A stretch of 38,644 bases of DNA from Acidobacteriota bacterium. Its GTDB lineage: Bacteria; Acidobacteriota; Terriglobia; Acidiferrales; UBA7541. Location: the NCBI GenBank assembly GCA_003223325.1, contig QHYS01000334.1, positions 1 to 38,644 of the forward strand, given 5' to 3'. Below, piece after piece: positions 1,082 to 19,990 of the stretch; the stretch's first letter is position 1; each line of letters opens with the position of its first letter. The notes under the pieces were generated by a model. The model made no database searches, was not told where the DNA came from, and worked only from the letters and a program-made list of their open reading frames with translations. The position numbers were made by a program, and so were the translations under genes.

Positions 1082-1158
1082 GATCGCGTCTCTCTTTCTT
1101 TTAGAATGTGTTCCCGGCCGACAGCTTCTTAGGGAGGGAAAAGAGCAATTGACCGGAG

Positions 1159-1607: not shown

Positions 1608-2954
1608 ATGCAAAGTGGGGAAGACATCCAGAGGATGCTGCTCTCTCCGGCGGCGCGAAGAATGTTGCGCGATCAGGTGAGAGCACTGCTGGCTCCTAGG
1701 GCTGTGCTGGGGCGGTGTCACCTGAGGGACGTTATATTCAGGCCCGGGTGCAAGCTTACGGCCTATCTCGACGTTCTTGTGCGCGTCGGAACTACCCAGA
1801 GATATCGCGTTCGCCCCATCGCAGTCATCTGGGGATCGGCTACCGATGCAGATCGGGGCGGCGAGGGGGGCGATATCACGAAGCTGCAGGCCGAGGCGGT
1901 GCGCCGCGGCGTGGCAGCGCCATTCCTGCAACTGATGGCGGATTTTCCCGAGTGGAGCATGCATGTCTGGGTCTCCCCGCTGGACGCGCGATTCACCCAG
2001 CTTGTTCGTGTGTCGGATCCGCGGCGCGTGCGGGAGATGCTGGCGGACGCCTGCGCGTCGGGTCATGCAGGATCGGATCAGCGTCGAATCAGCGATTACA
2101 CGGTTACAGCAATCAGATATCGACCCGGCAAGCGGCACGTGCTGCGTTACGACCCTGTGGACCCGGCGAAGGGAGGAACGCTCTTTGCCAAGCTTTACAT
2201 CGGCGAAAACGGGGCCCGTGCCTTCCGCATGGCAAATCGGACGGCAGACTGGCTAGCGGAGTGCGGCGAGAGCGTGAATTGCCTGCGGCCGCTAGCCTAC
2301 GTGGGGGAGGATGCGGTTGTCCTTTACCCGCGAGTTTGCGGCACCCCTCTCTCCGGCGACCTGCCGTGCCCCTGCGACCGTCTCGCTCGTTGCTTGGAAC
2401 GAGTTGGCGCGGCTCTCCACACTTTGCACCGCCTGCCGGAAGCGGTTGCCGGCCCGCTCGAAGTTCGTAATTTTGTGACCGAGATTCAAGCGATCGCGTG
2501 GGCGAGTTCTCATATCCCCGCGCTGCTGCCGGAGGTGGGATCAGCGATTGAGGCGCTTCTCGACCGCGCGCGTGAATTGCACGCGCGCCTGCCCCAAGAG
2601 CAGCCTACCTTCACACACAGGGACTTCAAGTCCGAGCACGTGTGGGTTGGTCCTGGCGGGCTCACGCTGATCGATTTCGACCGCTCTCGCTTGGCCGACC
2701 CGGCACTCGACGTTGGGACGTTACTGGCCGATCTGCGATGGTGGTGCGCGACCTATGACCTGCCGGGACTGGCGCAAGCGCAGAAGCGTTTCCTCGCCGG
2801 GTACGTCCCCGGCGCGCCCAAAGAGCGCTTACTCCGTGCCCGTTTGTACCAGGCGATCAAGCTAGTCAAAATGACCGTCATTCGAGTGTGCACCCGTTTC
2901 AGCACGACTGGGCCTCCAGAACCTCGCACATGGTTGGCTGCGCTCAAGTTGTAA
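1608..2954 (+). CDS. APH-fold phosphotransferase (kinase-like), 3' end frameshifted
   Basis: Soluble 448-residue protein of the aminoglycoside phosphotransferase/choline kinase fold. The catalytic loop is THRDFKSEHVWV (His337, Asp339) and the metal-binding motif LIDFDRSRLADPALDVG follows about 25 residues later. The usual HGDxxxxN Asn is replaced by His. Upstream, an N-lobe motif YRPGKRHVLRYD (near 170) is preceded by a similar copy FRPGCKLTAYLD (near 43). It is clearly paralogous to the product of 10222-11688 over the full length. The last residues diverge because of a frameshift near 2888 (gagTGTGcacc). In the next frame, QHDWASRTSHMVGCAQVV matches the paralogue's HDWASRTAALVGRAQAV and stays open to a stop at 3073. 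The kinase core is complete, so it may be active; the phosphorylated substrate is unknown. Only a weak ribosome site precedes the ATG. Confidence 0.75.
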   Translation: MQSGEDIQRMLLSPAARRMLRDQVRALLAPRAVLGRCHLRDVIFRPGCKLTAYLDVLVRVGTTQRYRVRPIAVIWGSATDADRGGEGGDITKLQAEAVRRGVAAPFLQLMADFPEWSMHVWVSPLDARFTQLVRVSDPRRVREMLADACASGHAGSDQRRISDYTVTAIRYRPGKRHVLRYDPVDPAKGGTLFAKLYIGENGARAFRMANRTADWLAECGESVNCLRPLAYVGEDAVVLYPRVCGTPLSGDLPCPCDRLARCLERVGAALHTLHRLPEAVAGPLEVRNFVTEIQAIAWASSHIPALLPEVGSAIEALLDRARELHARLPQEQPTFTHRDFKSEHVWVGPGGLTLIDFDRSRLADPALDVGTLLADLRWWCATYDLPGLAQAQKRFLAGYVPGAPKERLLRARLYQAIKLVKMTVIRVCTRFSTTGPPEPRTWLAALKL

Positions 2955-3288
2955 TGAATAATCTTGAGCGTAGTCTCGGATTGCCGCGCGGCCATTCTCA
3001 GTGCACCCGTAGTTTTGACCCGGGCTCAGCCGGGAAGAGTAGGTACGTGACACCGAGCGAGCGGTATCCCTGATCCGCGCCCGTCTTCGGCACGACGGAG
3101 GCACCGGCACGCGCGGTACGAAATTGACTCTACGAGAAAGCCGCGGCTTCAGGGTCGAAAATCGTCCGCCTAAAGTATACGGCGTCCACTCCTCCACTGA
3201 AGTCTCGACCTCGCCGCTCCGAGCCGCTGGGTATATTAACTCTGGCCGATTTTCATGAGGTTTCGCGGGCCGAAGGCCCCTTTTTGAG

Positions 3289-3362
3289 CACCATGTTGAG
3301 GCGATGCCTGCGGTCGTAATCCGCGCGGCCCCATTCACCCCGCAAGTCGTTCAAGTCGTAGC
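3289..3362 (-). pseudogene. Internal fragment of a TonB-dependent receptor gene
   Basis: The minus strand encodes YDLNDLRGEWGRADYDRRHR followed by LNMV. This equals the periplasmic-loop signature of Oar-like receptors; the intact receptor in this window has DWGRSDHDRRQRFNMTF about 120 residues before its C-terminus. The match is also visible at the base level (gcctgcggtcgt). It then runs into unrelated sequence and a stop at 3253. The stretch 3074-3288 otherwise holds no gene I can support. With the 1380-1530 fragment it brackets the APH-fold gene on the opposite strand. Confidence 0.55.
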
Positions 3363-3371
3363 TATCGGCAG

Positions 3372-4481
3372 CTACCGGCAGGAAGAGATAACATACTGCT
3401 CGCGCTGTCCATCGTGCGAGATAGTGTGTACTGGGTCACGGTGGACTATGCCGGCAATGTTTCTAAGGCCTTCTTCGAGCATCAGCTCGGCCTGTTCGTG
3501 CCACCCTGCGGCCCTCGCCTGAATAGCTTTTGTCCGTCCCTTTAGCCAGAAAACAGCCTTGTAGAATGGCAGGTTGTGTGGAACGCGCGGATGACCGCCG
3601 GAGTCAAGGTAGGCCCTGAGAAACACCTCAGCGGCACCATCCAGGGCGCGGATGGAGCCGACGTCCTTTATCGCTAGCCGCTCCAGGCTGACAATAAATT
3701 TTGCGACGTCGCGCGCCGGGTGGGCGATGTCGTAAAGATCCCAATCAAAGACTATTGTGCGTCCCTTTGTGAGAACAATCTGATGTTCGCAATAGTCGCC
3801 GTGACCGGCGCACGTGAGACTAGCGTCGAAAGATAAGGCGACAGTCCTTAATCGTTCGAGCAGCTGTTCGGACTTCACAACCAAAGCGCTGTCTGCCCCG
3901 GTTATAAGGCGGCACTTACGTTCAGCACTGCTCAGGAATCTCTCGATCCCTGAGATTTGACCTGACGGTGGGGCTAGCTTCTGGAACCGGGCTAACCAAC
4001 GCCCGCATCGCTCAGCAGCCGCGGCACGCTGGCGGGCATCACCAAGTTTGAAAATCTCTTTCGCTGACGTGCCGTCCACCCTTTCCTGCAAAAGCAGACG
4101 CAAGGATGGAAGATAGGCGAGCGGCTGGGGGATCGCAAATTCTTCTTCCGGGCCAAAACCTGACCGACTCAGTCTCTCCATAACTTGATACACGTCTTGA
4201 TGGTCGGTGGCGTAGACTTTGCCGATCAGGCGATGCCACCCACCCGGAGTGCGGAGATCAATCTCCAAGGTACAATGAGGCTCCGGATGGAAGCACAGCA
4301 CTTGTATGCGAACGTCCTGGGGGAGGCCCCAGGCCCACTGGGAGGTGGGAAGGGCGGCAATTTGATTGACCAACTTAGTGCTATCAAGAGCGGTGACCGC
4401 CGGGGCCGAACCATCTGGATCACTACTCGCAGAGGGTGTGAAGAATGCAGAATCAACGGAGTTGTGGACCGGTTCTGACAT
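3372..4481 (-). CDS. APH-fold phosphotransferase, last gene of the glycoside operon
   Basis: 369-residue soluble protein. The APH catalytic loop AGHGDYCEHQIVL (His227, Asp229) is followed by the metal site TIVFDWDLYDIAHPARDVA (about 244-262). The Asn of the canonical HGDxxxxN loop is replaced by Gln, as happens in some sugar and maltose kinase relatives. The N-lobe carries HCTLEIDLRTPGG and the C-terminal helices contain LPFYKAVFWLKG. It is only distantly related to the two other kinases in this window. The start ATG has a strong AGGAGG eight bases upstream. It lies 77 bases after the GT4 gene (4559-5776) on the same strand, so co-transcription is likely. Inference: it phosphorylates a sugar, aminosugar or alcohol on the product of the surrounding glycosyltransferases. 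The acceptor cannot be read from sequence. Confidence 0.75.
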   Translation of the reverse strand: MSEPVHNSVDSAFFTPSASSDPDGSAPAVTALDSTKLVNQIAALPTSQWAWGLPQDVRIQVLCFHPEPHCTLEIDLRTPGGWHRLIGKVYATDHQDVYQVMERLSRSGFGPEEEFAIPQPLAYLPSLRLLLQERVDGTSAKEIFKLGDARQRAAAAERCGRWLARFQKLAPPSGQISGIERFLSSAERKCRLITGADSALVVKSEQLLERLRTVALSFDASLTCAGHGDYCEHQIVLTKGRTIVFDWDLYDIAHPARDVAKFIVSLERLAIKDVGSIRALDGAAEVFLRAYLDSGGHPRVPHNLPFYKAVFWLKGRTKAIQARAAGWHEQAELMLEEGLRNIAGIVHRDPVHTISHDGQREQYVISSCR

Positions 4482-4558
4482 GTTGCTCCCTCCTCGTGTG
4501 GCCGAGACGGATTGATTCGAGCGTTTGCCCTGCTCTAGTGTGGGTTTTTCGTGAGCAT

Positions 4559-5776
4559 CTACTGGGCGCGCAAGACGCTGCCTTTTGCAGCGGGAAGGGG
4601 ATACCTGATATTTGAGCCTTCCGATGAGCCAAGAAGTAATTGCTCAATCTGAGTTGCACGGAGCTCCATCGAAAAGGATCGCGCTACGAACGCAGCTGCT
4701 GCTCGGCCCATCTCGTCACAGAGACTCCTATCCTTTGCGAGTGCGAGCAGGTGACTTTGGAACTCGTCAAAATCCTTCGCGAGCAGACCGGTGCGGTCGG
4801 CTTCCATAGTTATTCGGCCCAAATCGGTATCCATGGTGACAACGGCACGACCGGCAGCCTGAGCCTCCAATAACGCCTGATACGGACGGTTGCTTTCCGC
4901 CTTCTCAGGGATGGCAAAGAAATCGCAGGCTGCGTAGTACCTACTTATCTCGCTATGCTCCACTTCACCAGCCAAGTGCACGCGTTCACCCAGGTTGAGC
5001 CTTGCAGCTTCGTTTTCTATTTGTCCGCGGCCATTACCATCGCCAACCAGCAGCAGGAGAGCATTTCGGGGAAGTGCTGCGAACGCACGTATTAGGTCGA
5101 GGACCGACTCAGCTTTTCCAGGTCGCGGATCATCCTTATGTTTTCGAAGCGAGAGGCGGCTGACGCATAGGATGATCGGCCCCTCCGTTTGTAACCCAAG
5201 CACGCGGCGCGCTTCCTCGCGGCTAGGCAGCCGCGTCCAGGTCTTTACGGCGAGCGGAAGGAAGCACATGCGTTCCTCGGGAACGCCCCAACCGCGGAGG
5301 TGCTGGATAGCACCCCCCAGCTCCCCCATAGTCCGAACCACAACAACCTTGTCTGCTCGTTTTAACGACTTCCGGAAGGCGAAAGTGTATAAGTCTCGCC
5401 AGGGTCTCGGCAACGCCTTGACTCTTTGCTCGCCTGATCCCTCGCATCCGAGGAGTATGTACCTTTGGGGATGCTGCCACCAGCCAAACAGGTCGGGATA
5501 CTGAACTGAGGAGGCGTAGACAAGCCATGCGTCTGGCGAGAATCTCTTTACCTCCCCGCGCACCAGAGCCGCTTCGGCAAGGAGACGACGCAGAGGAAGT
5601 CGGCCGCGCCAGAAGTCACGCACGTCCAATCGAGAAACAATTTTTACCTCATGGCCTAGGTCTCTGAGACCTGTCAACACGTTGGTAATGAACATTCCGC
5701 TTCCTGACGTGTGCTTTTCACCGCCAGGGCAGCTCTCAAGATAACTCGCGCGCGGAACATAGTAGGCGATTCGCAT
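4559..5776 (-). CDS. GT4-family glycosyltransferase
   Basis: 405-residue GT-B fold glycosyltransferase. The N-terminal domain opens MRIAYYVPRASY and contains SGMFITNVLTGLRDLGHEV, the acceptor-side region typical of GT4. The C-terminal nucleotide-sugar domain has ILCVSRLSLRKHKDD, LLLLVGDGNGRGQIE and the E-x7-E-like motif IPEKAESNRPYQALLEAQAA. It should transfer a sugar from a nucleotide donor to a lipid-linked or small-molecule acceptor at the cytoplasmic face. I chose the ATG at 5776 because AAAGGGAGA lies just upstream and the family fold begins there; the frame is open 30 codons further up. It lies 96 bases after the epimerase gene in the same direction. Confidence 0.85.
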   Translation of the reverse strand: MRIAYYVPRASYLESCPGGEKHTSGSGMFITNVLTGLRDLGHEVKIVSRLDVRDFWRGRLPLRRLLAEAALVRGEVKRFSPDAWLVYASSVQYPDLFGWWQHPQRYILLGCEGSGEQRVKALPRPWRDLYTFAFRKSLKRADKVVVVRTMGELGGAIQHLRGWGVPEERMCFLPLAVKTWTRLPSREEARRVLGLQTEGPIILCVSRLSLRKHKDDPRPGKAESVLDLIRAFAALPRNALLLLVGDGNGRGQIENEAARLNLGERVHLAGEVEHSEISRYYAACDFFAIPEKAESNRPYQALLEAQAAGRAVVTMDTDLGRITMEADRTGLLAKDFDEFQSHLLALAKDRSLCDEMGRAAAAFVARSFSMELRATQIEQLLLGSSEGSNIRYPLPAAKGSVLRAQ

Positions 5777-5872
5777 AGCGTCTCCCTTTCTTTTTATGCT
5801 TGAACACAGAAATCTGCACTTTGCCTCTTCAGGCGTTCTGCGGTCTCCTACCGAACTGCTAAGCACATGAAC

Positions 5873-6934
5873 TCACGACGCAAATCCTGAATCTAGCCGG
5901 ATACTCTTCGCAAGCTGTTCCCCGGGAGCGTCTGATGTGAGCTTCCACGCTGGTGCCCAGTTCCGGTACCACTCCACAAAATTTGTAAGTCCCTCCTCGA
6001 GCGATGTATACGGTCGATAGCCCAGCACACAGTTTGCTTTTGATGTATCGGCCCATGTCATTGGAGAATCTCCAGGCTGTGGGGGTCGCCATTCGCAGAT
6101 TGCCTTGCGTCCAGTTACGCTCTCCAGTAGCTCGATAAGTTCAGTGAGCTTAACCGGATGTGAATTGCCGAGATTGGAAACCTCAAAGGGAGCGAAGCCC
6201 GAGGGGAGCTTCAACTTATAATCGATACTAGCCAAGATTCCGGCCACAATATCATCAACATACGTATAGTCGCGGGCGGTGGAGCCATCTCCGAAAATGG
6301 GCAGGGGCTTGCCTGCCTCGATCAACGCTGTGAACTTACGGATGGCGAGGTCTGGACGTTGCCTCGGACCGTAGACGGTGAAGAAGCGCAGACAAATTAC
6401 CTGTAGTCCGAACAGATGAGCATATGTGTGGGCCAACATCTCACCGGCCAGCTTGGTGGCCGCATACGGGGAGAGCGGCCGCAATTCCCCTTGCTTTTCG
6501 GAAAAGGGCACAGGACTCATTCCGCCATAAACCGAACTGGATGAACCGAAGATGAACTTATGCACGTGGAACCGGCGGCAGAGTTCTAGCACGTTCAAGG
6601 TGCCTGCTACGTTTACTTGCTCGTACAATTGGGGCTGCTGGATGGAGGGGCGCACACCCACACATGCGGCCAGGTGAATTACCACCTCAGGTTGATGGAG
6701 TGCCATGATCTGAGATAGCTGCAGCATGTCGCAAATATCGACAGCATAAAACTCATAGTTGCCGACGCGACTAATGGCTTCCAAATTGGCTTTCTTCAAA
6801 CTGGTATCATAGAAAGAGTCAAGATTATCCACGATTGCTAAACGAAAGCCCCGGCGCAGCAAGGCTTCCGCGAGATGCGATCCAATGAATCCAGCTCCGC
6901 CGGTCAGCAGCACGCTCTGTCGTTGGTCACTCAT
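5873..6934 (-). CDS. NAD-dependent nucleotide-sugar epimerase (UDP-glucuronate 4-epimerase-like)
   Basis: 353-residue extended short-chain dehydrogenase. The Rossmann motif TGGAGFIGSH sits at 11-20, the serine motif SSSSVYG at 131-137 and the catalytic YAATK at 157-161. The segment RFFTVYGPRQRPDLAIRKFT is characteristic of UDP-glucuronate/UDP-galacturonate epimerases, although 4,6-dehydratase relatives share it. It should supply an epimerised UDP-sugar donor for the neighbouring glycosyltransferases. The ATG at 6934 has a G-rich ribosome site (AGAGGGGGGA) and lies 31 bases after the TonB receptor stop; the frame is open 32 codons further up but that stretch is receptor sequence. The hexuronate specificity is inferred from family wording only. 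Confidence 0.85.
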   Translation of the reverse strand: MSDQRQSVLLTGGAGFIGSHLAEALLRRGFRLAIVDNLDSFYDTSLKKANLEAISRVGNYEFYAVDICDMLQLSQIMALHQPEVVIHLAACVGVRPSIQQPQLYEQVNVAGTLNVLELCRRFHVHKFIFGSSSSVYGGMSPVPFSEKQGELRPLSPYAATKLAGEMLAHTYAHLFGLQVICLRFFTVYGPRQRPDLAIRKFTALIEAGKPLPIFGDGSTARDYTYVDDIVAGILASIDYKLKLPSGFAPFEVSNLGNSHPVKLTELIELLESVTGRKAICEWRPPQPGDSPMTWADTSKANCVLGYRPYTSLEEGLTNFVEWYRNWAPAWKLTSDAPGEQLAKSIRLDSGFAS

Positions 6935-6965
6935 CGTGGTTCCCCCCTCTACATTCGTTGAGATT

Positions 6966-9317
6966 TCAGAAGTGGTAACGCATGGAAACCTGGAGCTGGC
7001 GAGCGGGGTAAGCGGTATAGGGTTGGCCAAATGTCGGCGAGGAGATTACACCATCGTATTTGTCCAAGTTCACGTGGTTGAGAAGGTTGAAAACGTCCCA
7101 CGAGACATCAAGGAAGCGGGCATGCTCTTTTTGCCTAATCCGCCAGCGTTTCGAGAGACGCAGGTCCACGTCCGTGTAGCCCCCGGCGCGCCCGGCATTG
7201 CGTGAAACGCCAGGGGGCCGGTCGTTAAAGACGGTATCGTGATCCTCATCGTTTCCCGTGGTGATGTTGTAGGGCAGACCCGACCATGCATTGAAGATCC
7301 CCGACACCCGGAAACCGAAGCGCAATGGATAGAGGAAAGTCATATTGAATCGCTGCCTGCGGTCGTGATCCGAGCGGCCCCAGTCGCTGCTCGGGTCGTA
7401 ATTATTGGCCGGCGTGAAAAGGAAGCCACTCGTGTCGTCAAAAGTGCGGGAAAGCACATATTGGGCCATGATATTCAATTTGCGCAGCTCGCCCTTAAAG
7501 GCAATGGCTAGGCTATTGCTGTGCGAGTTTCCGGATGCCTCGAATTGATTGATACTGACAAAATTGGGGTTAGGGGGGGTGGTAGTCCCGGGGAGCGGGG
7601 CATTGAGGTTGCGCGAGCGGTAGAGGTCCACACCGCGCACCGTGGAGAGTTCCAATGTAAGAAAATTCTGGCGGCGTCCGACTTTGTGCTCAATCTCGAA
7701 ACTGTCCTGCATCATATACGGGAAGCGGATACGCGGATCAATCCGCATGATGCTGGGTATAGCCGCAGCCGTCGGCGGGTTGCCAGGCAGGAACGGTTGG
7801 GGATAGGACGGGCAGGATTGAGGGCAGGACAGCACGATTTCGTGAATGGCTATGCCATCGTCAAGAAGGCTGTCTTGCTCCATGAGGTACGGCTGCCGGT
7901 CGTAGAAAATTCCGAAGCCTCCGCGGAACACGGTGTTGGCGCCTCCAGGCGAATAGGCAAAAGCCAAACGGGGAGCAAAGTTCTTGTAGTAGGAAACGTT
8001 AGATTGGAACTCATGGCGCAAGCCCAGCATGAGGGAAAAGTTCGGCTGCAAGCGCATCTCATCCTGAAAGAAGGAAAAAACTTCGTGCTGCTGGAAGTGA
8101 ACGGCGGGATTGCCGAAATTCATCGTGAACTCTGAGGGTTGGGCAGGAGTGTTCTGGAAATCCGCCAACTGGGAAAAAATGAATGTACCGCCGAAATTTG
8201 AACGGTCTTCGGAGAACAAGTACCTCAGTTTGGCTCCCCCACCGAACTGGAAATTGTGCCGGCCGTGAAAGACAGAAGCCACGTCTTGCATGTCGACTAG
8301 GTTTTCAATCAGATTGTGGTTCGTTTGGGCGCCGCCGAAATTGGAGGCGCCCAGGATGAGTACGGCATCCTCGTTGGAGATGCTGGTCGTGCTCTGGCGC
8401 TCCTGTTTGTAGGTGAAACGCACCTGGTTTTGAAAATTGGAGGAAGGTGTTGCTGTTTCGAGGACCTTGACTTCATTTTCGTGGTCGAAGAAGTTCGTCG
8501 CGCGGTCTGGAAGATCGAGCCCGCCAATGCCTTGGTTCTCTAGCTTCTCGTTCTTGAATTTGTAGAGAAGAGATATTTTGTGAGCGGGGCTCAAGTGGCT
8601 GTCGATTCTGCCGAACAAGTAGGACCTGTACTCAGGAACCCTGACGTTCTCTATAAACGCTCCTGCTGGCGTGGTTACGTTGTTTACAAGGATCCCCGCT
8701 GGTGTAGTTGCGTCCACTACCGCACTGTTGTTAAAGAAATGTAAGCGTCCCGCGAGGAAGAAGGTCGTCTGCTTGGCAAGCGGGCCATCCAATTCCGCCT
8801 CGCCGATTTCGCGTTGCTGAAGCGGCCGCGCGAGCGCCAGCGCATTACGGGCATCAAGAGCAGAATTACGGAACAGGGCGGTCACGTCGCCCCGGTAACG
8901 GCGGTGAGCGCCTTGTCTGGTGGTGACTTGCAGCCGCCCCTTGCCGGGCCGGCCGAATTCGCCCGAATACGGATTCTCGTCCACCGTAACACTTTTCACG
9001 CTCGAGGCAGGCAGATCGAGGGAGCTAGTCTCCACCCCATCCACAATGATCGTCGGTCCGCTAGCGCCGACAACGGCCGGGTTAAGAAACAAAGAGGGAA
9101 CGGTCAATGGGTTGTCGTCTTTCGCTGGCAAATTCATAACCGCTTGCTGGTTGAATTGAACCTGGTTGCGATTCTCTTCTGCGAGGGGGATGGCTTGTCC
9201 ACTAACAATCACCTTCTCAGAAACCTGCGCAATTTTGAGCTTCACCCGAATGTCGGCTATCGGTCCAGAGCCGACAGCGATGGGCCTTTCCACCGGCTCG
9301 AAACCGGCAACGTTCAC
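6966..9317 (-). CDS. TonB-dependent receptor, Oar-like outer-membrane barrel
   Basis: 783 residues from the first possible start (GTG). The N-terminal end of a carboxypeptidase-regulatory-like domain (NVAGFEPVERPI) leads into a plug region (NPYSGEFGRPGKGRLQVTT) and a long barrel. The barrel has typical strands and the loop DWGRSDHDRRQRFNMTF; it ends PARQLQVSMRYHF with the C-terminal Phe needed for outer-membrane insertion. Such receptors bind and import large ligands, often glycans, using TonB energy. The frame continues upstream of the GTG with more of the regulatory-like domain (TTTTDEEGDFEFSKVPPG), although no start codon is available there. The GTG start is therefore probably false, and the gene was probably one frame with the AMIN gene. 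No separate signal peptide is present in this frame, which supports that reading. Confidence 0.85.
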   Translation of the reverse strand: MNVAGFEPVERPIAVGSGPIADIRVKLKIAQVSEKVIVSGQAIPLAEENRNQVQFNQQAVMNLPAKDDNPLTVPSLFLNPAVVGASGPTIIVDGVETSSLDLPASSVKSVTVDENPYSGEFGRPGKGRLQVTTRQGAHRRYRGDVTALFRNSALDARNALALARPLQQREIGEAELDGPLAKQTTFFLAGRLHFFNNSAVVDATTPAGILVNNVTTPAGAFIENVRVPEYRSYLFGRIDSHLSPAHKISLLYKFKNEKLENQGIGGLDLPDRATNFFDHENEVKVLETATPSSNFQNQVRFTYKQERQSTTSISNEDAVLILGASNFGGAQTNHNLIENLVDMQDVASVFHGRHNFQFGGGAKLRYLFSEDRSNFGGTFIFSQLADFQNTPAQPSEFTMNFGNPAVHFQQHEVFSFFQDEMRLQPNFSLMLGLRHEFQSNVSYYKNFAPRLAFAYSPGGANTVFRGGFGIFYDRQPYLMEQDSLLDDGIAIHEIVLSCPQSCPSYPQPFLPGNPPTAAAIPSIMRIDPRIRFPYMMQDSFEIEHKVGRRQNFLTLELSTVRGVDLYRSRNLNAPLPGTTTPPNPNFVSINQFEASGNSHSNSLAIAFKGELRKLNIMAQYVLSRTFDDTSGFLFTPANNYDPSSDWGRSDHDRRQRFNMTFLYPLRFGFRVSGIFNAWSGLPYNITTGNDEDHDTVFNDRPPGVSRNAGRAGGYTDVDLRLSKRWRIRQKEHARFLDVSWDVFNLLNHVNLDKYDGVISSPTFGQPYTAYPARQLQVSMRYHF

Positions 9318-10225
9318 GCGCAGGACATAGTCTCCCGGAGGGACTTTCGAAAATTCAAAGTCACCCTCCTCGTCCGTTGTCGTGGTAAGGGGCTGCCCAC
9401 CGGTCGCCGCACAGGCGCCGTGCCTTGAGCACTCGTTGCTAGCGTCGGTTTTGCGGCGGGCACGGGGCCCATGCCATCGGCCATTGTCTTCAGCGCTGGA
9501 GATGGCGGAACCGCAGTCACCGTGGCGACTCGAAACGAAATGGGCATGGGCAACAGGGAAGGCGAGGCCTTCGCTGAGAGAGGCAGCGGACCCACGGCAG
9601 GACTTGGCGGGGTTTCTAGGTGTGCTGTCTTTGCTGTTGAAGCCGCAGGTGCTGCAGCCCCAGGCGCCAAACCTGTGGCGTCCGCGCTCGCTTTGGGCGC
9701 CGAATTTGCGGCCGCAGCCGCGCTATCGGCCGGCCCGTATAGGTCGACCACCAGGCGACCGGGATCGGCGAGTTCAAAGACGGAATAATCCTTCACCTTG
9801 GTCACATCCAGCACCACGACCACCGCCGAGCGGTCTTGTGCCACCCGTAGCGCCTTCAAGTAGCTGCCGGAAGGAATGTCGATCGGTTGGTGCAGGAGTT
9901 CATTGCTCAACCTGGCGTTTTCGATATCGAGATAGATGCGATCCGGATCTTGGATGCGGGCGGCCTGATATTTGGCCCGGCCTCCGAGTTCGACGGTAAT
10001 TCGGGTGTAGTTGTCCGCGTTCGTGATGCGCACGCGGCTCACTTCAACGTCTTGCGCAAGCGCAGTTCCACCCGCCGCGGCGCGGCGGGAAGAAGAATCT
10101 GGGGTCCTCAAGGCGGGTTGGTTTTGCGCCTGTCGGGGTGGAGGGCCTTGCTGTACCCCGGCAGGCGCGCCAATCGAAAATACGGCCATCAGGAGGATGG
10201 GTACGCAGAAGTATCTTAAGATCAT
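9314..10225 (-). CDS. AMIN-domain exported protein, probably the N-terminus of the TonB receptor
   Basis: 303 residues. A signal peptide (MILRYFCVPILLMAVFSIG) is followed by an AMIN domain (about 58-160) with VEVSRVRITNADNYTRITVE and DPDRIYLDIENARL. An Ala/Pro-rich linker follows. AMIN domains bind peptidoglycan or outer-membrane partners, as in PilQ and AmiC. The last 40 residues (RRPVGSPLPRQRTRRVTLNF) look like out-of-frame reading of the receptor's regulatory-like domain. The stop overlaps the receptor's GTG as GTGA. A one-base change near 9405-9420 would fuse the two into a receptor of about 1080 residues, a normal size for Acidobacteriota. The start ATG overlaps the kinase gene stop as ATGA. 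Confidence 0.75.
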   Translation of the reverse strand: MILRYFCVPILLMAVFSIGAPAGVQQGPPPRQAQNQPALRTPDSSSRRAAAGGTALAQDVEVSRVRITNADNYTRITVELGGRAKYQAARIQDPDRIYLDIENARLSNELLHQPIDIPSGSYLKALRVAQDRSAVVVVLDVTKVKDYSVFELADPGRLVVDLYGPADSAAAAANSAPKASADATGLAPGAAAPAASTAKTAHLETPPSPAVGPLPLSAKASPSLLPMPISFRVATVTAVPPSPALKTMADGMGPVPAAKPTLATSAQGTAPVRRPVGSPLPRQRTRRVTLNFRKSLRETMSCA

Positions 10226-10242
10226 TGTAGTTCTCTGCTTTC
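10220..10242 (-). repeat. Gene-junction repeat, copy 1 (kinase to AMIN)
   Basis: The 23 bases here differ at one position from those at 14321-14343. On the minus strand each copy encodes the C-terminal residues ESRELQ, the stop TGA, and the overlapping ATGA start of the next gene. An AGAGAA element five bases before the ATG may serve as ribosome site for coupled translation. The proteins ending here (APH kinase) and at 14323 (ABC exporter) are unrelated. Confidence 0.75.
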
Positions 10243-11688
10243 TTCAGGGATAGTGGTCGCAGAGGTATAACGAGGCATAACGAGGGCAAATTGAAGATCG
10301 TTTAGCACGGCCTGGGCGCGTCCAACCAGCGCGGCCGTACGGGACGCCCAATCGTGCTCGAAGAGCTGGACCCGGCGAACCGCACATTTGACCAACTCCA
10401 TCGCCTCGTATAGACGGGCGCGAATCAAGCGCTCTTTCGGCACACCGGGGGCGTACCCCGCGAGGAAGCTCTCGTGCATTTGTTCCAGCCCGGCCTGATC
10501 ATAGGCGGGGTGCGAGAACTGGCAATCGGCCAGGAAACACCCCACATCGAGCGCCGGATCGGCCAAGTGAGAGGTATCGAAATCGATCAACGTGAGCCGG
10601 CCAGGGGCAACCCAAATGTGTTCGGATTTGAGATCCCCGTGGGTGAAGGTCGGGGGCTCCTGGGGGAGTCGCTCGTGCAGTTCTTGGGCGCGATCAAGTA
10701 GAGCCCCGATCGCCGACCCTACCTGGGGTAACAGTGCGGGGATATGACCGCTCTTCTTGGCAATCAACCGAATCTCAGCAGCAAAATCATGAGGGGGGCC
10801 GAGGGGGCCGACAAGCTCCAGGGGCATCTGATGCAAACTGCAGAGGGCCTCGCCGGTGCGCTTTAACCACGGTGCGACGCTGCCGATAGAGCGCTCGGCG
10901 TAGTAGTCGGACAGGGGTCTGCCCACAACTCGCGGATAAAGAACCACCGCGTCCTCAACCACGTGGGCAAGCGGCCGCAAGCAGCTCGCGTTGTTTCCAT
11001 GCTCTGCCAGCCAGTCCGCCGCCTTGCTCGCCACACGAAAGGCGCGTGCCGCGTCTTCCCGGCGAAAGGCGCGCGCCCCGTCTTCGACGATGTAAAGCTT
11101 GGCGAATACCGTTTCGTCCCCCGGGTCTAGTGGGTCATAGCGCAGCACGTGGCCCTTACCAGGGCGGTATTTAAAAGAGGTAACCGCATACTCGCTGAGC
11201 TGATCCAATGCTGCAACCCCCGTGTTCGCGAGGAGAACGCGCACGTGCTGCGGATCCGACAAGCGGACCAGCTGGGTGAATCGTGCGTCTAGCGGTGACA
11301 CCCAGACCCTCATGGTCCACTCGGAAAAATCTGCCATGAGTTGCCGGAATGGTGCCGCCACGCCACGGCCTACCGCCTCGGCCTGTACGGCAAGAGCGAC
11401 TGTTTCTTCGTGCCCATCTTCGTGTGTATTTGCTCCCCAGGTTACAGCGAAAGGGCGAACGTCATCTTCGTGGCGGCTCTCTGTATTCACAAACGCGTCG
11501 TAATAGGCAGTGATCCTGCGGCCAGGCTTGAATCGCACCTCCCTTAGACGACACGGCCCCACGCGAGCCCCGGCGGGGAGAAGTGCTCTCAGCCGATCCG
11601 CTAACACCTGCTGGGCCGTCGGGGAGAGCAAGAGCCATCGGATACCATTCGACTTGGCGCGTCCCGAGAGCACTTCCCCGATGTTCAT
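10222..11688 (-). CDS. APH-fold phosphotransferase with duplicated N-lobe motif
   Basis: 488-residue soluble kinase-fold protein. The catalytic loop is THGDLKSEHIWV (His350, Asp352) and the metal site LIDFDTSHLADPALDVG follows. The usual loop Asn is His. The nucleotide-side motif YRPGKGHVLRYD (about 172) is preceded by a similar FKPGRRITAYYD (about 53), so the first 150 residues look like a second, degenerate N-lobe. Family members phosphorylate aminoglycosides, sugars, choline or amino alcohols; this one's acceptor is unknown. I chose ATG 11688 because AAAGAGG lies upstream; the frame is open 11 codons further. It sits 39 bases after a GT4 gene and overlaps the AMIN gene start by four bases. 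A 27-bp tandem duplication near residue 200-217 repeats ARAFR. Confidence 0.8.
   Translation of the reverse strand: MNIGEVLSGRAKSNGIRWLLLSPTAQQVLADRLRALLPAGARVGPCRLREVRFKPGRRITAYYDAFVNTESRHEDDVRPFAVTWGANTHEDGHEETVALAVQAEAVGRGVAAPFRQLMADFSEWTMRVWVSPLDARFTQLVRLSDPQHVRVLLANTGVAALDQLSEYAVTSFKYRPGKGHVLRYDPLDPGDETVFAKLYIVEDGARAFRREDAARAFRVASKAADWLAEHGNNASCLRPLAHVVEDAVVLYPRVVGRPLSDYYAERSIGSVAPWLKRTGEALCSLHQMPLELVGPLGPPHDFAAEIRLIAKKSGHIPALLPQVGSAIGALLDRAQELHERLPQEPPTFTHGDLKSEHIWVAPGRLTLIDFDTSHLADPALDVGCFLADCQFSHPAYDQAGLEQMHESFLAGYAPGVPKERLIRARLYEAMELVKCAVRRVQLFEHDWASRTAALVGRAQAVLNDLQFALVMPRYTSATTIPEESRELQ
11036..11089 (-). repeat. 27-bp tandem duplication inside the kinase gene
   Basis: Two adjacent copies begin cgaaaggcgcg at 11036 and 11063 and continue with ccgtcttc. 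They keep the frame and give GARAFRREDAARAFR. The paralogue at 1608-2954 has only one copy (GARAFRMANR), so the duplication is recent. Confidence 0.75.
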
Positions 11689-11727
11689 TCTCGACCTCTT
11701 TCGACTAATGATAGAAGGCACGGAAAG

Positions 11728-13023
11728 CTAATTCTGAGCGTGCCAACTGCCGAACCTTATTCCGCGCCGCGGCCAGGCGCCATTTCGTTTGATTAGTGGC
11801 TCAACTCGATCGATGACCGTAGTCGCATTTTGGGTCCACGTGCGCCCCGAGCAGGCAGCATTTGCGTTTCGCCCTAGTTCCTTACACAGCGCTGGGTTGT
11901 CCCGGAGCCGCCGGATACAGCCGACCAGATCCGCCAGGTTACCCGGCTCAAATAACAGGCCCGTAACTCCATCAACGACGACTTCTGCTATTTGTCCCAC
12001 TCGGCTGGCAACCACCGCCCGACCCGCAGCCATGTATTCGAAGAGCTTCAGCGGAGAAAAGTAGAAATCGTCCAGACGGGGGTAAGGAGCAACGGCAATA
12101 TCCATTGCCGCCAAATAATGGGGTACGTCTTCGTGAGCTAGTGCCCCGGCGAACGTTACTGCGTGCAGTAACTCCGCCTTCTGAACTTCCTGCTCAAATT
12201 GAGAGCGTAACGGCCCCTCTCCCACGAGGAGTAGGTGGGTCGAGGGGTCAGCCCGGTGCAGGTCCCGAAACGCGGAGAGCAGCAAGTCCACGCCGTGCCA
12301 GCGTTTGAAAGTACCAACAAAGCCGATGACAAAGCGCCCCTCAAGGTTAAAACGTTGCCTCACCTGCGAGCCGTCCAGGCCTATATGGAACAAGTCCGTA
12401 TTAACAGCATTGGGCAGAACGTGAATAAGCTCAGGCTTTACCTTCGATCTTCGCAATTGGCTGTGCAGTGATTCCGAAACTGGGATCACCAGGCACGCCT
12501 TTCTCCAGATCACTCCTTCGACCCAACGTGCCAGCGGAGGGCAGGTCACACCCGCTCTGTAGTGCTGCTGTTCGTAGGCGAAGGGCGCGTTCACTTCGAG
12601 GACAAGTGGAATCGAGCGTTTTTTGGCCAGGCAAAGGCCCGCCACGGCCCAGAGACTGTAACGCTCATAAATGAAATCTGGATTCAGTTGCTCGGCAGCC
12701 CACATTGCCGCCCTGAAGAACGTTAGATTATGCAGGACCCGAACTACATCGGGGTTGCGACGAGGAGTCCGGCCGAGTGCACGGTTGGCGGTTCTTAAAA
12801 CCTGGGCCAGTGCGCGATTCCACAGAGAGAGGGGTGCCGGACAAATTGTGGCATGCAGGTTGTCTTCGAGAACTTGCTTACAGCTCGGCAGACTACAAGC
12901 GACGATAACAACTTTGTGACCGAGATCAGCGAGAGCGCGAGCGAAAGACCGGATATGAATGGCCGCGCCGCTTTTCCCAGCCACATCGATACCTGGATCG
13001 TTACACAGATAGAGAATCTTCAT
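11728..13023 (-). CDS. GT4-family glycosyltransferase
   Basis: 431-residue GT-B enzyme. The acceptor domain opens MKILYLCNDPGIDVAGKSGA, with an Arg/His-rich RSFARALADLGHKV helix. The donor domain contains FVIGFVGTFKRWHGVDLLL, HLLLVGEGPLRSQFE and the nucleotide-sugar motif FSPLKLFEYMAAGRAVVAS (an E-x7-E variant). Likely role: transfer of one sugar in assembly of the operon's glycan at the cytoplasmic membrane. The ATG at 13023 has an AGGGG ribosome site located inside the previous gene, whose stop lies 23 bases downstream, so translation is coupled. Donor and acceptor are unknown. Confidence 0.87.
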   Translation of the reverse strand: MKILYLCNDPGIDVAGKSGAAIHIRSFARALADLGHKVVIVACSLPSCKQVLEDNLHATICPAPLSLWNRALAQVLRTANRALGRTPRRNPDVVRVLHNLTFFRAAMWAAEQLNPDFIYERYSLWAVAGLCLAKKRSIPLVLEVNAPFAYEQQHYRAGVTCPPLARWVEGVIWRKACLVIPVSESLHSQLRRSKVKPELIHVLPNAVNTDLFHIGLDGSQVRQRFNLEGRFVIGFVGTFKRWHGVDLLLSAFRDLHRADPSTHLLLVGEGPLRSQFEQEVQKAELLHAVTFAGALAHEDVPHYLAAMDIAVAPYPRLDDFYFSPLKLFEYMAAGRAVVASRVGQIAEVVVDGVTGLLFEPGNLADLVGCIRRLRDNPALCKELGRNANAACSGRTWTQNATTVIDRVEPLIKRNGAWPRRGIRFGSWHAQN

Positions 13024-14326
13024 TTGCCCCTACCTGCTGGAAGAGAGACAGTAATTGTGCAGAGCTCTTTTCGATTGAGAAGCAAGTCTCAATCTTCACC
13101 CGGGCAGCAAGAGCTAGTCGTTCGCGCAACTCTGGCGAGGTGAGAAGCCTGTCCAGTGCATCGGCAAGACTCGCAGGGTTGTTCGGGGGGAGCAGCAGAC
13201 CTTCAACTTCCGAGTTGATCACTTCTGGAATACCCGAAATGTGGGTGGCCACGACGGGTACGCCACTAGCCATCGCCTCCAGCAACACATTGGGAATGCC
13301 GTCGCGGTCGCCATCGGCGGTAACAACACAGGGAAGTACAAAAAGGCAAGCCCTCTGGTAAACACGGCAGAGCTTGTCGTGGGGCATGGGGCCCAGCAGT
13401 TTTACTCGGTCATTCAAACCCAGCCGTTTCACCTGGACTTGCAAGCTCTGCCGCAGAGGGCCGTCCCCGACGATCTCGACTTGGAAGCGACGGCCGCGCT
13501 GCCGAAGAACGTCAGCAGCCAAGATGAGGTCGCCCAGCCCCTTCTTCTCGACGAGCCTAGCTACCGACAGAATCACAGGTGGCTCTGAACTAAGAGCCCG
13601 TGGGGAGCAAAAGTTAAACTGGGACAGATCAAGCCCATGATAAATACAGTGTAGTTTGCCATTACTAGCGGGGCCGATCTGAGTTAACAGATACCGTCGG
13701 TTGTACTCCGTGCAGGTGACCACGGCTTGGGCAGTCTGGACCTCGGCTCGGAGAAGCTCGGGCGGTGTTTTCACGTAAATATCTTTGGCGTGGGCTGTGA
13801 AGCTATAGGGAATCCCCGTGAGATAATGAGCAAACATCGTGACGAACGTCGGGTCGTGGGCAAAGTGTGCGTGCAGATGAGTCACTGGCTCCCGGAAGAG
13901 CATCTCTGCCAAATAAGTCGCTTGGAAGAAGCATCGGAGGACGCCCAATCGACGGTAGCGCAATGCTCTAAGTATGGCTTGCCAGAAGCGGACAGGCCGC
14001 TCCAGGAATAAATGGATACTAGCAAGCCCAATCGCCTTCCAGTTGCGCTGAATCGAGAGGCAGGTCACCGGCGCATGTACCTTCGTCACTTTGGCGTGGG
14101 CGGCCTTATCTTCCAGGTCCTTCGTGGTAAAAATCTGCAAGCAGGCCCCTAGGCGCTCGATGCCAATCACTTCGTTCAGGATAAAAGTCTCCGACAACCG
14201 CGGCCACGCGCTTACTACATATCCCACCTTTGGATTTCCATTAGGTCGCGGGTCCACGCAATCTCTATTCGACAAACTGAGAGACATATCCGACCAAATC
14301 GTCCCGCCTCGCAGGGCATAGATCAT
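13001..14326 (-). CDS. GT4-family glycosyltransferase
   Basis: 441-residue GT-B enzyme related to colanic-acid type transferases. The acceptor half has PKVGYVVSAWPRLSETFILN and HLHAHFAHDPTFVTMFAHYL. The donor half has ILSVARLVEKKGLGDLI, VEIVGDGPLRQSLQ and DGIPNVLLEAMASGVPVVAT, which holds the catalytic acidic pair. The annotated ATG at 14326 overlaps the exporter stop as ATGA. The family fold begins only near residue 33, and an internal ATG at 14287 is an alternative, so the first 13 residues could be a by-product of the repeated junction. It overlaps the next GT4 gene by 23 bases. Confidence 0.87.
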   Translation of the reverse strand: MIYALRGGTIWSDMSLSLSNRDCVDPRPNGNPKVGYVVSAWPRLSETFILNEVIGIERLGACLQIFTTKDLEDKAAHAKVTKVHAPVTCLSIQRNWKAIGLASIHLFLERPVRFWQAILRALRYRRLGVLRCFFQATYLAEMLFREPVTHLHAHFAHDPTFVTMFAHYLTGIPYSFTAHAKDIYVKTPPELLRAEVQTAQAVVTCTEYNRRYLLTQIGPASNGKLHCIYHGLDLSQFNFCSPRALSSEPPVILSVARLVEKKGLGDLILAADVLRQRGRRFQVEIVGDGPLRQSLQVQVKRLGLNDRVKLLGPMPHDKLCRVYQRACLFVLPCVVTADGDRDGIPNVLLEAMASGVPVVATHISGIPEVINSEVEGLLLPPNNPASLADALDRLLTSPELRERLALAARVKIETCFSIEKSSAQLLSLFQQVGANEDSLSV

Positions 14327-14343
14327 TGTAGTTCTCGGCTTTC
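14321..14343 (-). repeat. Gene-junction repeat, copy 2 (ABC exporter to GT4)
   Basis: Same 23-base element as at 10220-10242 with one mismatch (G for T at the 17th base). It encodes ESRELQ, a stop, and an overlapping ATGA start. The upstream flanks of the two copies are unrelated, so only the junction itself is shared. Confidence 0.75.
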
Positions 14344-16242
14344 GCCAGAGGTAATGAGGACAGGGGACTTGTACGGAGAAACCTGAAGTTGATGAAGATG
14401 AGCGTACCGGCCCTTGCGAGCGAGCAGCTCTTCATGGCTGCCTTCCTCGACGATGCGCGCGCCGTCGAGGACGATAATGCGATCTGCAAGGCGCACTGTG
14501 CTGAGACGGTGTGCGATGACGAGCGTGGTGCGTCCGGCCGCCGCGTGCTCAAGCGCGTTCATGACAGTGCGCTCGGCGTTGGCATCCAGACCACTGGTGG
14601 GCTCGTCGAGAATCAAAACGGGCGTGTTGCGCAACACGGCGCGAGCGATAGCAATGCGCTGCTTCTGCCCGCCGGATAAAGTGATTCCCCTCTCTCCCAC
14701 CGTGGTGTCGTATCCCTGCGGAAGCCGGCGAATGAACTCGTCCGCGTTTGCCGTTGCGGCGGCGGCACAGATTTCTTCGTCGCTTGCGTCGGTTCGGCCG
14801 AATGCGATGTTGTCCCGGATGGTACCGCTCAAAAGCAACGAGTCCTGAAGGACCAAACTGATCTGCTCGCGGAGCGAGCGAAGGGAATAGTTCCGAATGT
14901 CCTCCCCGTCCATCAGGACCGCGCCCGCGCCAGGGTCGTAGAAGCGAGGAACTAAGCTCACCAGCGTGCTCTTCCCCGCCCCGGTGGCTCCGACAATCGC
15001 CAGTTTCTGTCCCGGCGCGATGCGAAGGTTGATATGAGAGAGAACTATTACCCCTGGCTCGTACTCAAATGACACGTCCCGAAACTCGATGGCGCCCTTG
15101 AATTGTGGGGCCCGCCGGGCACGCTTGCCGTCCCTGACCTCACTCCGATGCCGCAAAACCTCGACGATTCGCTCGGCGGCTATACTGGCCTTGGTGAAGG
15201 TATTCGCCGAACGCGAAATGGCCTTCATGGGACTGTAGAAGCCATTGACGTAGGCGAAGAAAATGATCACGTCCCCGGTTGTGAGCCGCCCGTCAAGAAC
15301 GCTCTTGGCCCCGTACCACATCACCATGGTCAGCCCTATGGCCGACAAAAAATCCACTACGGACGCGATCCGCGCCTGGTACCGCACGCTCTCCAAGAGC
15401 GCGTGAAGGCCGCTTTCGCTTTGCACATGGAAGCGCTCGTCGAGCTGGTCCTCTTGCGCCAGCCCCTGTACGATGCGAATGGAGGCCAGCGTTTCCTGGG
15501 CGAGTGAAGCCAGGAGTCCTGTGCTGGCGCGAGCTTTGCGATTCGCGCGCTTGATGAGGCGTTTGTTACGATAAACGATCCAGAACATCAGCGGGGCGAC
15601 CGAGAGAGTAGCGAGAGCGAACCTCCAGTTGAGCCAGAACATCAGGAGAGCCATGCTGACCAGCAACAGCGTGTTGCTGCCGAAAGTGATGATGCCGGTG
15701 ACGATAAAGTCTTGAATCGACTGAATGTCAGAAGTCAACCGGTTGGTCAGGTCGCCTGTCTTTTGGGTGTCGTGGAAACGCAGGGACAGACGTTGCATGT
15801 GAGCGAACAGGTCCCGCCGCAGCTCAAAGACAAAGCGCTGGCCGACGTTACCTAGAAGGCGTGTATAGCAGTAAGCGGTTAGACCGGTGATGACCGCAAT
15901 GAGGAGTACCGCCGCGCAAGAGCCGTACAGGATTTGCATCTTCGTGAATGGCGCGTTGTCCAGCCATGTGTGGATCAGAGGCACGCGGCTTGGTTTATGC
16001 GAAAGCACGCGATCGATCACCACTTTGAGAGGCCAAGGACGCATGACGGCGAGCGCGGCGTCCAGAACCATGGTCAGAAGCGCAAGTAAGATCTTTCTCC
16101 AGTGCGCAAGGAAAAGAGGCAGGATGTAGAGAATGCTTCCTTTTTCGCTCCTGTCAAAGTTGAACTGGCTAACCATCTCTTCGGTGTTCGCTCCTTCTAA
16201 AACGACTGTGCGGACTTTCGAGCCTGGTTGCCCGGTCTGCAC
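14323..16242 (-). CDS. ABC exporter, fused permease and ATPase (MsbA/ABCB type)
   Basis: 639 residues. Six predicted membrane helices fill about 40-330. A nucleotide-binding domain follows with Walker A GATGAGKST (about 416), the signature LSGGQKQR (about 525), Walker B VLILDEPTSGLD and the switch His in LVIAHRLSTVRLAD. As a half-transporter it should act as a homodimer, exporting a lipid-linked or glycosylated compound across the inner membrane. The order exporter, GT4, GT4, kinase suggests that the exported cargo is the product of the neighbouring enzymes. ATG 16242 is used because no other start is clearly better; an internal ATG at 16176 (MVSQFNFDRSEKG) is plausible. The C-terminus ends in the repeated ESRELQ. 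Confidence 0.92.
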   Translation of the reverse strand: MQTGQPGSKVRTVVLEGANTEEMVSQFNFDRSEKGSILYILPLFLAHWRKILLALLTMVLDAALAVMRPWPLKVVIDRVLSHKPSRVPLIHTWLDNAPFTKMQILYGSCAAVLLIAVITGLTAYCYTRLLGNVGQRFVFELRRDLFAHMQRLSLRFHDTQKTGDLTNRLTSDIQSIQDFIVTGIITFGSNTLLLVSMALLMFWLNWRFALATLSVAPLMFWIVYRNKRLIKRANRKARASTGLLASLAQETLASIRIVQGLAQEDQLDERFHVQSESGLHALLESVRYQARIASVVDFLSAIGLTMVMWYGAKSVLDGRLTTGDVIIFFAYVNGFYSPMKAISRSANTFTKASIAAERIVEVLRHRSEVRDGKRARRAPQFKGAIEFRDVSFEYEPGVIVLSHINLRIAPGQKLAIVGATGAGKSTLVSLVPRFYDPGAGAVLMDGEDIRNYSLRSLREQISLVLQDSLLLSGTIRDNIAFGRTDASDEEICAAAATANADEFIRRLPQGYDTTVGERGITLSGGQKQRIAIARAVLRNTPVLILDEPTSGLDANAERTVMNALEHAAAGRTTLVIAHRLSTVRLADRIIVLDGARIVEEGSHEELLARKGRYAHLHQLQVSPYKSPVLITSGESRELQ

Positions 16243-18017: not shown

Positions 18018-18310
18018 TTGTGGTCCTCCTCGGGGACCTAGCAGACGCGCAGCAGAAGGTCCTCTTCGAATCAACACCATGGAGCAGGGCAAAATCCCGT
18101 CATGCAAAGATTCGCGGCCGGATCGCCGTACGAAGCTGAGGGAAGTGTGGCAGCTTGCTCCTCGGCCGAATCTTGCCCAAGGTCAATCGACCGTCCGATC
18201 TCCCTCCGCATTAAAACCACGTAACAATTACTTTAAAGTTGATTACAAACAATCCGGTGTTTCACCGCATCGAAACGCGCAAAGACCCTAAAGAAAAACC
18301 AGCACAGGAT

Positions 18311-19881: not shown

Positions 19882-19990
19882 CGTTTTTCTCCGAGCCCCG
19901 AGCCAGCTTCCCGAAGCACCCGAGTGGGACCGTAGTCCGCTTTCACAATGACGGGAAGTGGGCCGAGGCTCCGCCGCGACGAGAATTCTC

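Follow-up and report, generated by a model that had tools for sequence, protein, structure and literature searches.

Kinases with an apparently doubled N-lobe in a probable glycan assembly and export cassette of an Acidobacteriota bacterium

Closest described systems

Enzymes of the kinase fold gain additional caps or insertions, and complete pseudokinase domains occur frequently; a literature search by titles and starts of abstracts found no published description of a duplication confined to the N-lobe. The 38,644 nt stretch of Acidobacteriota DNA analysed here (the window) encodes two kinases, P0001 and P0002 (kinase A), which appear to carry such a duplication, and a third kinase with one N-lobe, P0003 (kinase B). 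Two solved enzymes share features with these proteins. APH(2'')-Id (PDB 3n4v and others) resembles kinase A in its APH fold and in a His within the active-site loop; however, the similarity is weak (E 0.024 to profile A4), and the enzyme consists of about 300 residues and lacks the front domain. It is a resistance enzyme and is not part of a glycan cassette. Mycobacterial maltokinase (PDB 4u94, 4o7o) likewise has an APH-like fold and, as in kinase A, an extra domain precedes its N-lobe. According to the accessible part of its structural description (PMC4306142), this cap is a cystatin-like domain of 88 residues, which consists of a helix, three long strands and two short strands, and Mg is bound by a Gln, which resembles the Gln of P0003. 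Maltokinase differs in that its substrate is free maltose, and a blunt profile test did not link its cap to the front lobe of the window kinases.

The arrangement closest to the window is found on the E. coli plasmid p1RM9088 (L100), where a kinase with an apparently doubled N-lobe and a one-lobed kinase are likewise located in a GT28-GT4-GT4-ABC cassette. They are annotated as "aminoglycoside phosphotransferase family protein" and "phosphotransferase". The plasmid kinase A is only 16% identical to P0002, the loops contain Gln, and an alginate-export protein and a nucleotide sugar dehydrogenase replace the AMIN-domain protein, the barrel and the epimerase of the window. The best NCBIfam match of P0001, P0002 and P0003 is the class V lanthionine synthetase LxmK (NF038156); membership was rejected, as the scores of 30.2, 35.8 and 31.8 bits are far under the cut-off of 315, and no lanthipeptide gene was recognised in the cassette. 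The model for maltokinase and the TreS C-terminus (TIGR02457) was likewise rejected (P0003, 12.6 bits, cut-off 375.05; P0001 and P0002 not among the matches listed).

The kinases and their gene neighbourhood

A sequence-only reading had placed three APH-fold kinases in the window, and both their positions and their fold were confirmed (Table 1): all three proteins score above the Pfam APH (PF01636) cut-off of 23.2 bits. P0002 can alternatively start at an ATG at 11688, giving a protein of 488 aa, whose numbering is used below. P0001 and P0002 are 58% identical. The reading frame of P0002 is intact, whereas that of P0001 is lost near 2888, so that its C-terminal tail is missing; the part corresponding to the final ~40 residues in related proteins is encoded in another frame, and P0001 may be a damaged copy. 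The single N-lobe of P0003 was judged by eye.

Table 1. Kinase genes, putative front lobes and cassette genes in the window
Feature	Position	Strand	Details
P0001, kinase A copy with apparently doubled N-lobe	1608..2954	+	448 aa; HRDFKSEH loop; Pfam APH 88 bits
P0002, kinase A with apparently doubled N-lobe	10222..11721	-	GTG start, 499 aa; HGDLKSEH loop; Pfam APH 72.8 bits
P0003, kinase B, one N-lobe	3372..4481	-	369 aa; HGDYCEHQ loop; Pfam APH 55.8 bits
Putative front (pseudo) N-lobe of P0001	1638..2096	+	profile match, alignments A3/A5
Putative front (pseudo) N-lobe of P0002	11191..11640	-	profile match and residue column
GT4c, glycosyltransferase group 1	4559..5866	-	Pfam PF00534
NAD-dependent sugar epimerase/dehydratase	5873..7030	-	Pfam PF16363, PF01370; best NCBIfam galE, under its cut-off
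Outer-membrane beta-barrel protein	6966..9317	-	Pfam PF25183
AMIN-domain protein	9314..10225	-	Pfam PF11741
GT4b, glycosyltransferase	11728..13023	-	Pfam PF00534
GT4a, glycosyltransferase	13001..14326	-	Pfam PF00534
MsbA-like ABC exporter, single chain with membrane and ATPase domains	14323..16242	-	PF00664, PF00005; best NCBIfam MsbA, under its cut-off
GT28, MurG-like glycosyltransferase	16767..18107	-	Pfam PF04101; relatives on plasmids

The beta-3 Lys, the HxD Asp and the metal-binding Asp are present in P0001 and P0002 (FAKLY, HGD/HRD, DFD) as well as in P0003 (GKVY, HGD, DWD), and H350, D352, D369 and D371 are invariant in alignment A5. The catalytic unit of kinase A would thus be formed by the rear N-lobe and the C-lobe, with Lys197, Asp352, Asp369 and His357 in P0002, where His357 should bind Mg in place of the usual Asn. 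The Asn expected five residues after the HxD Asp is replaced by His, His and Gln in P0001, P0002 and P0003, respectively, as the sequence-only reading had stated. The pattern H[GR]DxKxEH did not arise in any of 20000 shuffles and is absent from P0003, and the His is retained in all 21 distinct loops. The view that this His is a peculiarity of the window kinases had to be given up, since APH(2'')-Id carries His at the same position (HNDFSSDH), maltokinase Gln and methylthioribose kinase Ser. The Asn is not a strict feature of the APH family, and the odd active-site histidine is ordinary.

Kinases A and B belong to a gene set whose probable role is the assembly and export of a sugar polymer. The cassette is kept in loci L041, L042, L047 and L049, and P0003 stays beside GT4c in L041, L047, L048 and L049. 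More distant cassettes are located on plasmids of E. coli, Paracoccus, Pseudorhodobacter and Candidatus Manganitrophus. The kinase A and B genes overlap in E. coli, and in two Rhodobacterales (Paracoccus and Pseudorhodobacter) both kinases are fused into a single polypeptide. Kinase B and GT4b were each found in 11 of 12 genomes with kinase A; in contrast, they were present in only two and one, respectively, of 18 relatives without kinase A, which were hand-picked and all belong to one family. Relatives of GT28 occur on four other plasmid stretches that contain no annotated kinase; the kinases are therefore not needed by every such module. Among the matches listed in a literature search, partly judged by title or start of the abstract, no published description of the cassette was found.

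Evidence for a doubled N-lobe

The N-lobe of P0001 and P0002 had been proposed to be doubled because of a repeated motif. In the spelling originally given, R/KPG-x(4)-A/R-Y-D, the motif matches none of the three kinases; the repetition itself holds in the form [RK]PG-x(6)-[YL]-D, which is found at residues 45 and 172 of P0001 and at residues 54 and 175 of P0002 and is absent from P0003. Two copies were obtained in none of 20000 shuffles of either protein, and at least one copy in 50 shuffles of P0001 and 34 of P0002.

Using hhalign and a set of 14 diverse relatives with both lobes, the front domains matched their own rear catalytic N-lobes with 95% (E 3.5e-8) and ten one-lobed kinases with 95.4% (E 1.7e-8). 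None of 150 column shuffles gave a match as good as that between front and rear N-lobe, and the front-lobe match failed in the reversed, C-lobe and column-shuffled controls. The front domain of the window family is linked to the rest via other front domains (93.2%, E 2.9e-7). Kinship of the two lobes thus stands for the wider set; it is not significant from P0001 and P0002 alone, for which 270 and 328 of 500 shuffles gave scores at least as good, or from 11 close relatives (best E 0.018), so that the 14-row set was needed. Most of the signal comes from the first hairpin, which alone reaches E 1.3e-6, compared with E 0.012-0.035 for the remainder.

The catalytic column holds a Lys in 13 of 14 rear lobes (Lys197 in alignment A5) but in none of the 14 front lobes, and P0002 has Val82 at this position. 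Because the catalytic Lys is missing, the front lobe is read as a pseudo-lobe, in agreement with the earlier suggestion. It is under purifying selection (median dN/dS 0.33, 55 pairs), and each of the three parts compared has a dN/dS well below 1. The N-lobe of P0001 and P0002 thus appears, from profiles and residues, to be doubled with a worn-down front copy.

Ten front domains had no match in Pfam, and a comparison with the sequences of solved structures gave a single chance match (E 0.33). A front-domain profile found only the window's own genome among 396 genomes of the phylum, with at most nine candidates scored per genome. With the L088 kinase as query, matches among 199 genomes were confined to the two that carry L087 and L088. 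No relative, and thus no phage link, was found when viral_contigs was scanned with P0002, A3 and A4.

Possible function and alternatives

Kinases A and B most likely act as a pair on sugars or glycans, with a pseudo-lobe that serves for docking or covers the substrate; the action on sugars or glycans is deduced from the gene context. P0001 and P0002 would belong to an uncharacterised group of small-molecule kinases with the APH fold and a duplicated N-lobe, the front copy becoming a pseudo-N-lobe through loss of the catalytic Lys, and kinase A would work together with the one-lobed kinase B in glycan assembly and export. Fold, residues, profile kinship of the lobes and cassette are the sequence basis of this explanation, to which, taken as a whole, we give an even chance. 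Both kinases may phosphorylate a sugar of the glycan while it is growing or linked to a lipid. The pseudo-lobe may dock a protein of the cassette, such as kinase B, or cover the acceptor site, the latter by analogy with a proposal for the unrelated-looking maltokinase cap. A bolder version is unlikely in our view: the dead lobe would be kept for docking, and A and B would form a two-kinase machine that phosphorylates the glycan at its hand-over to the exporter, with the pseudo-lobe coupling phosphorylation to export, in a widespread but undescribed architecture.

The front domain could instead be a maltokinase-type cystatin-like cap, the RPG hairpin being convergent or a chance likeness of two beta hairpins, which we regard as quite unlikely. 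Two AlphaFold models are poor (mean pLDDT 50.4 and 55.8); their order of helix-strand-strand-strand-helix is compatible with an N-lobe and also close to the element order in the available part of the cap description (PMC4306142). Foldseek with the poor model of the front domain gave a best E of 0.42, with four EGFR kinase rows at E 0.68-2.6 among the best 50. A second, weak structural search with a poor model listed cystatin-like folds and maltokinase caps (4u94 residues 2-91, Z 4.0; 5jy7, Z 3.6) among its best 50 rows, where Z below 8 is common; the absence of kinase N-lobes from these rows says little given the query. The cap reading is opposed by the profiles, as the front domain matched the maltokinase cap with only 0.2% (E 0.28) versus 95% for the rear N-lobe, although this test is blunt, since the rear lobe scored only 0.1% against maltokinase's own N-lobe. 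The maltokinase profiles were built from six of eight loci (L111 and L113 left out), and the cap alignment omits L112, which lacks most of the cap.

It is possible, if somewhat unlikely, that the kinases do not act on the glycan itself and make free sugar 1-phosphates, from which nucleotide sugars for the cassette would be synthesised. Maltokinase and glucosamine kinase, both with the APH fold, use free sugars, as far as the accessible parts of PMC4306142 and PMC6520443 show, and nucleotide sugars are supplied by the epimerase in the window and the dehydrogenase in E. coli; however, no nucleotidyltransferase was seen among the annotated cassette genes of the window and the E. coli plasmid, and paired kinases would require two such sugars, both points being weak either way. 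The lost frame of P0001, together with tandem, broken and internally deleted copies, which are common (e.g., L049), could indicate that the window copies are largely decaying or copy-number-variable repeats of little function; the intact P0002, the retained loop His and the low dN/dS values make this very unlikely. Aminoglycoside resistance, suggested by the APH fold and the His loop shared with APH(2'')-Id, is highly improbable: the kinase genes sit inside a glycan cassette, and P0002 reaches 13.2 bits with the APH(3') model NF033068 versus a cut-off of 205 (P0001 and P0003 are not among the matches listed).

If the preferred explanation of a duplicated N-lobe is true, kinase A would offer a natural pseudo-N-lobe, in which the change of an ATP-binding lobe into a docking or substrate-covering part could be studied. 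Furthermore, it suggests that glycan pathways, and not resistance, are the context of some plasmid-encoded kinases in E. coli, Paracoccus and Nitrospirota that are annotated as "aminoglycoside phosphotransferase".

Kinase genes and catalytic loops

The window encodes two copies of kinase A (P0001 and P0002), in which a front domain precedes a catalytic unit of rear N-lobe and C-lobe, and one kinase B (P0003) with a single N-lobe. All three reading frames lie where the sequence-only reading had placed them, and its assignment to the APH fold was borne out by 88, 72.8 and 55.8 bits for P0001, P0002 and P0003, respectively, against a Pfam APH cut-off of 23.2. The H(G/R)DxKSEH loop it described was recovered in both copies of kinase A, as was the Gln in the third kinase. 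The R/KPG-x(4)-A/R-Y-D motif matched none of the three kinases and has to be replaced by [RK]PG-x(6)-[YL]-D, which occurs at residues 45 and 172 of P0001 and 54 and 175 of P0002 (ATG numbering), and twice in none of 20000 shuffles of either protein.

P0001 and P0002 are 58% identical. P0001 drops out of frame near 2888, and the tail known from its relatives continues in a different frame; this loss is either genuine or an assembly error. A 27-nt tandem duplication at the C-helix start of P0002 extends the helix region (EDGARAFRR-EDAARAFR). It is common to many relatives, with L043 reading EDGARAFRREDGARAFR; P0001, the second L045 copy, L036 and copies from G015 have the single form.

The replacement of the loop Asn by His or Gln is ordinary. 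In alignments, APH(2'')-Id reads HNDFSSDH and PDB 9dk1 reads HCDLRFDQ; Mg in maltokinase is bound via Gln310 and Asp322 (PMC4306142), and methylthioribose kinase has Ser at this position (PMC4702295). The His was retained in all 21 distinct loops caught by a pattern that demands an initial His and a Trp after it; loops of other form would be missed.

Features in the window and in loci of other genomes
Feature	Locus	Position	Strand	Observation
P0001, kinase A	window	1608-2954	+	loop HRDFKSEH
P0002, kinase A	window	10222-11688 (ATG; frame to 11721)	-	loop HGDLKSEH
P0003, kinase B	window	3372-4481	-	loop HGDYCEHQ
27-nt duplication	window	11035-11085		in P0002
Direct repeat	window	434-1006		267 nt, about 2.1 copies, contig edge
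Sole long frame found at repeat	window	242-1132	+	no Pfam match
LuxR-type regulator, short integrase-like frame	window	21669-22382, 19261-19992		past GT28 end of cassette
Internally deleted kinase A	L049	7856-8539		first part of front domain and C-terminal part in one frame
Kinase-like frame	L009	from 2436		loop HGQFRPAH; adjoins one-lobed relative (HGDFHPDH)
Degenerate second kinase-like domain	L087	from 508		loop LKLHPDEI; in frame with doubled kinase
Glycan cassette, E. coli plasmid p1RM9088	L100	2584-12762		two APH-fold kinases

The front domain and the N-lobe

The claim of a second N-lobe holds for the family profile, but P0001 and P0002 alone do not stand out. With 11 close relatives, the comparison of front and rear was not significant (best E 0.018). 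The wider set added the distant phylum members L087 and L088 and plasmid kinases of E. coli, Paracoccus, Pseudorhodobacter and Candidatus Manganitrophus. In A5, the alignment of 14 doubled kinases, the front domain matched the rear N-lobe at 95% (E 3.5e-8, 74 columns in register) and at 92.7% (E 4.3e-7) in the opposite direction, while five controls (C-lobe or reversed profiles) all stayed at or below 0.4%. Ten one-lobed N-lobes outside A5, two of them taken from fused chains that also supply A5 members, were matched at 95.4% (E 1.7e-8), and in neither comparison did any of 150 column shuffles score as high. Leaving out the three proteobacterial members gave a match between the lobes of 83.7% (E 8.1e-6). 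Taken by itself, the stretch ending at the first hairpin gave 90.6% (E 1.3e-6); the part after it gave only E 0.012-0.035, with a short match on the expected strand pair.

The front domain of the window family matched the other front domains at 93.2% (E 2.9e-7); compared by itself with the rear lobes of the other kinases, it reached E 0.01, and with the one-lobed set E 0.0019. Of the pairwise lobe matches within single proteins, only those of the E. coli kinase (equalled by 0 of 500 shuffles) and one Manganitrophus kinase (2 of 500, aligned around beta-3) stood out, unlike those of P0002 (270 of 500) and P0001 (328 of 500). These profiles argue with good confidence for a doubled N-lobe in kinase A, the front domain being related to the rear one. 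Of the 14 rear lobes, 13 have the beta-3 Lys and that of the E. coli kinase has Arg; none of the 14 front lobes has this Lys, the residue there being Val, Ala, Thr or His. In two Manganitrophus kinases, a Lys lies one residue further along. The front-lobe hinge Asp (Asp134 of P0002) is invariant (14/14). Median dN/dS (simple count, 55 pairs) was 0.33 for the front lobe, 0.27 for the rear lobe and 0.22 for the C-lobe, which points to constraint on the front lobe too, a little weaker than on the other two parts.

The closest parallel to a front domain that would dock or cover is the maltokinase cap, which has been proposed as the anchoring point for TreS (PMC4306142). AlphaFold models from two runs were poor; the order helix, three strands, helix of the front domain is compatible with an N-lobe and partly with this cap, which also turned up in a weak second structural look (Z 4.0, from a poor model). 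The profile comparison with the cap found no match (0.2%), in a blunt test that likewise failed to pair the rear lobe with the N-lobe of maltokinase itself (0.1%).

Cassette and distribution

On the minus strand, the order is GT28, ABC exporter, GT4a, GT4b, P0002, AMIN, barrel, epimerase, GT4c and P0003. From ABC to kinase B, neighbouring genes overlap or lie at most 77 bases apart; GT28 is 524 bases away, and P0001 and kinase B stand tail to tail. The GT4a-to-kinase B block is repeated in L041 and L049 and partly in L042 and L047, with the exporter on the opposite strand in L041, L042 and L049. In L041, an extra kinase A copy of different loop type faces kinase B in the place of P0001. The regulator and integrase-like frames have Pfam matches below cut-off, and the minus strand of the direct repeat may encode a cut repeat protein.

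At E 1e-10, P0002 had matches in 6 of 61 near genomes, its own included; two of them, in G019 (one-lobed by eye) and G029, are weak and remote, at about 1e-11. At E 1e-20, 12 genomes among 399 from the class had a match, own counted and at most three candidates scored per genome. Kinase B (E 1e-40) and GT4b (E 1e-100) each occur in 11 of 12 genomes with kinase A, compared with 2 and 1 of 18 relatives without kinase A; the Fisher values (1.5e-5 and 2.5e-6) are too optimistic because of kinship among the genomes and because all of the 18, which were hand-picked, belong to one family. Ten named loci come from metagenome assemblies whose sample names refer to soil depth; nine carry the label Acidobacteria and one the label Gammaproteobacteria. 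Kinase A has several copies per genome, some of them head to tail (three on one G015 contig, two plus a fragment on another; two in G365), and broken or internally deleted copies also occur. The L009 frame, with Gln replacing the catalytic Asp, is possibly a dead partner, judging from its loop.

E. coli relatives occur in 18 of 5426 complete genomes, plasmid-borne in all, in the order GT28, GT4, GT4, ABC, kinase A, kinase B, alginate-export protein, nucleotide sugar dehydrogenase. Kinases A and B share one frame in Paracoccus and Pseudorhodobacter. The Manganitrophus plasmid cassettes (L101, L102, L104) also carry a heparinase II/III-type protein, and L101 and L104 additionally radical SAM and histidine phosphatase genes. 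Records of the E. coli, Paracoccus and Manganitrophus relatives hold general names only, and the literature searches made for the p1RM9088 cassette returned no paper describing it. Incomplete gene tables list no kinase for four further plasmid stretches that hold a GT28 relative; the kinases thus seem to have been added to a broader glycan module.

Proposed role of the kinases

Sequence comparison establishes APH-fold kinases with predicted catalytic residues in the rear unit and a conserved cassette. The kinases are reasonably likely to act in the glycan pathway; any exact step is far less certain. Kinases A and B would act jointly on a sugar, which most likely belongs to the glycan that is exported or to its lipid-linked precursor, or they may instead form a free sugar phosphate. 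A literature search at title and abstract level brought up no description of a duplicated N-lobe in kinases of this type. The doubled kinases show a known fold in a new architecture, whose front pseudo-lobe would dock a partner or cover the acceptor.
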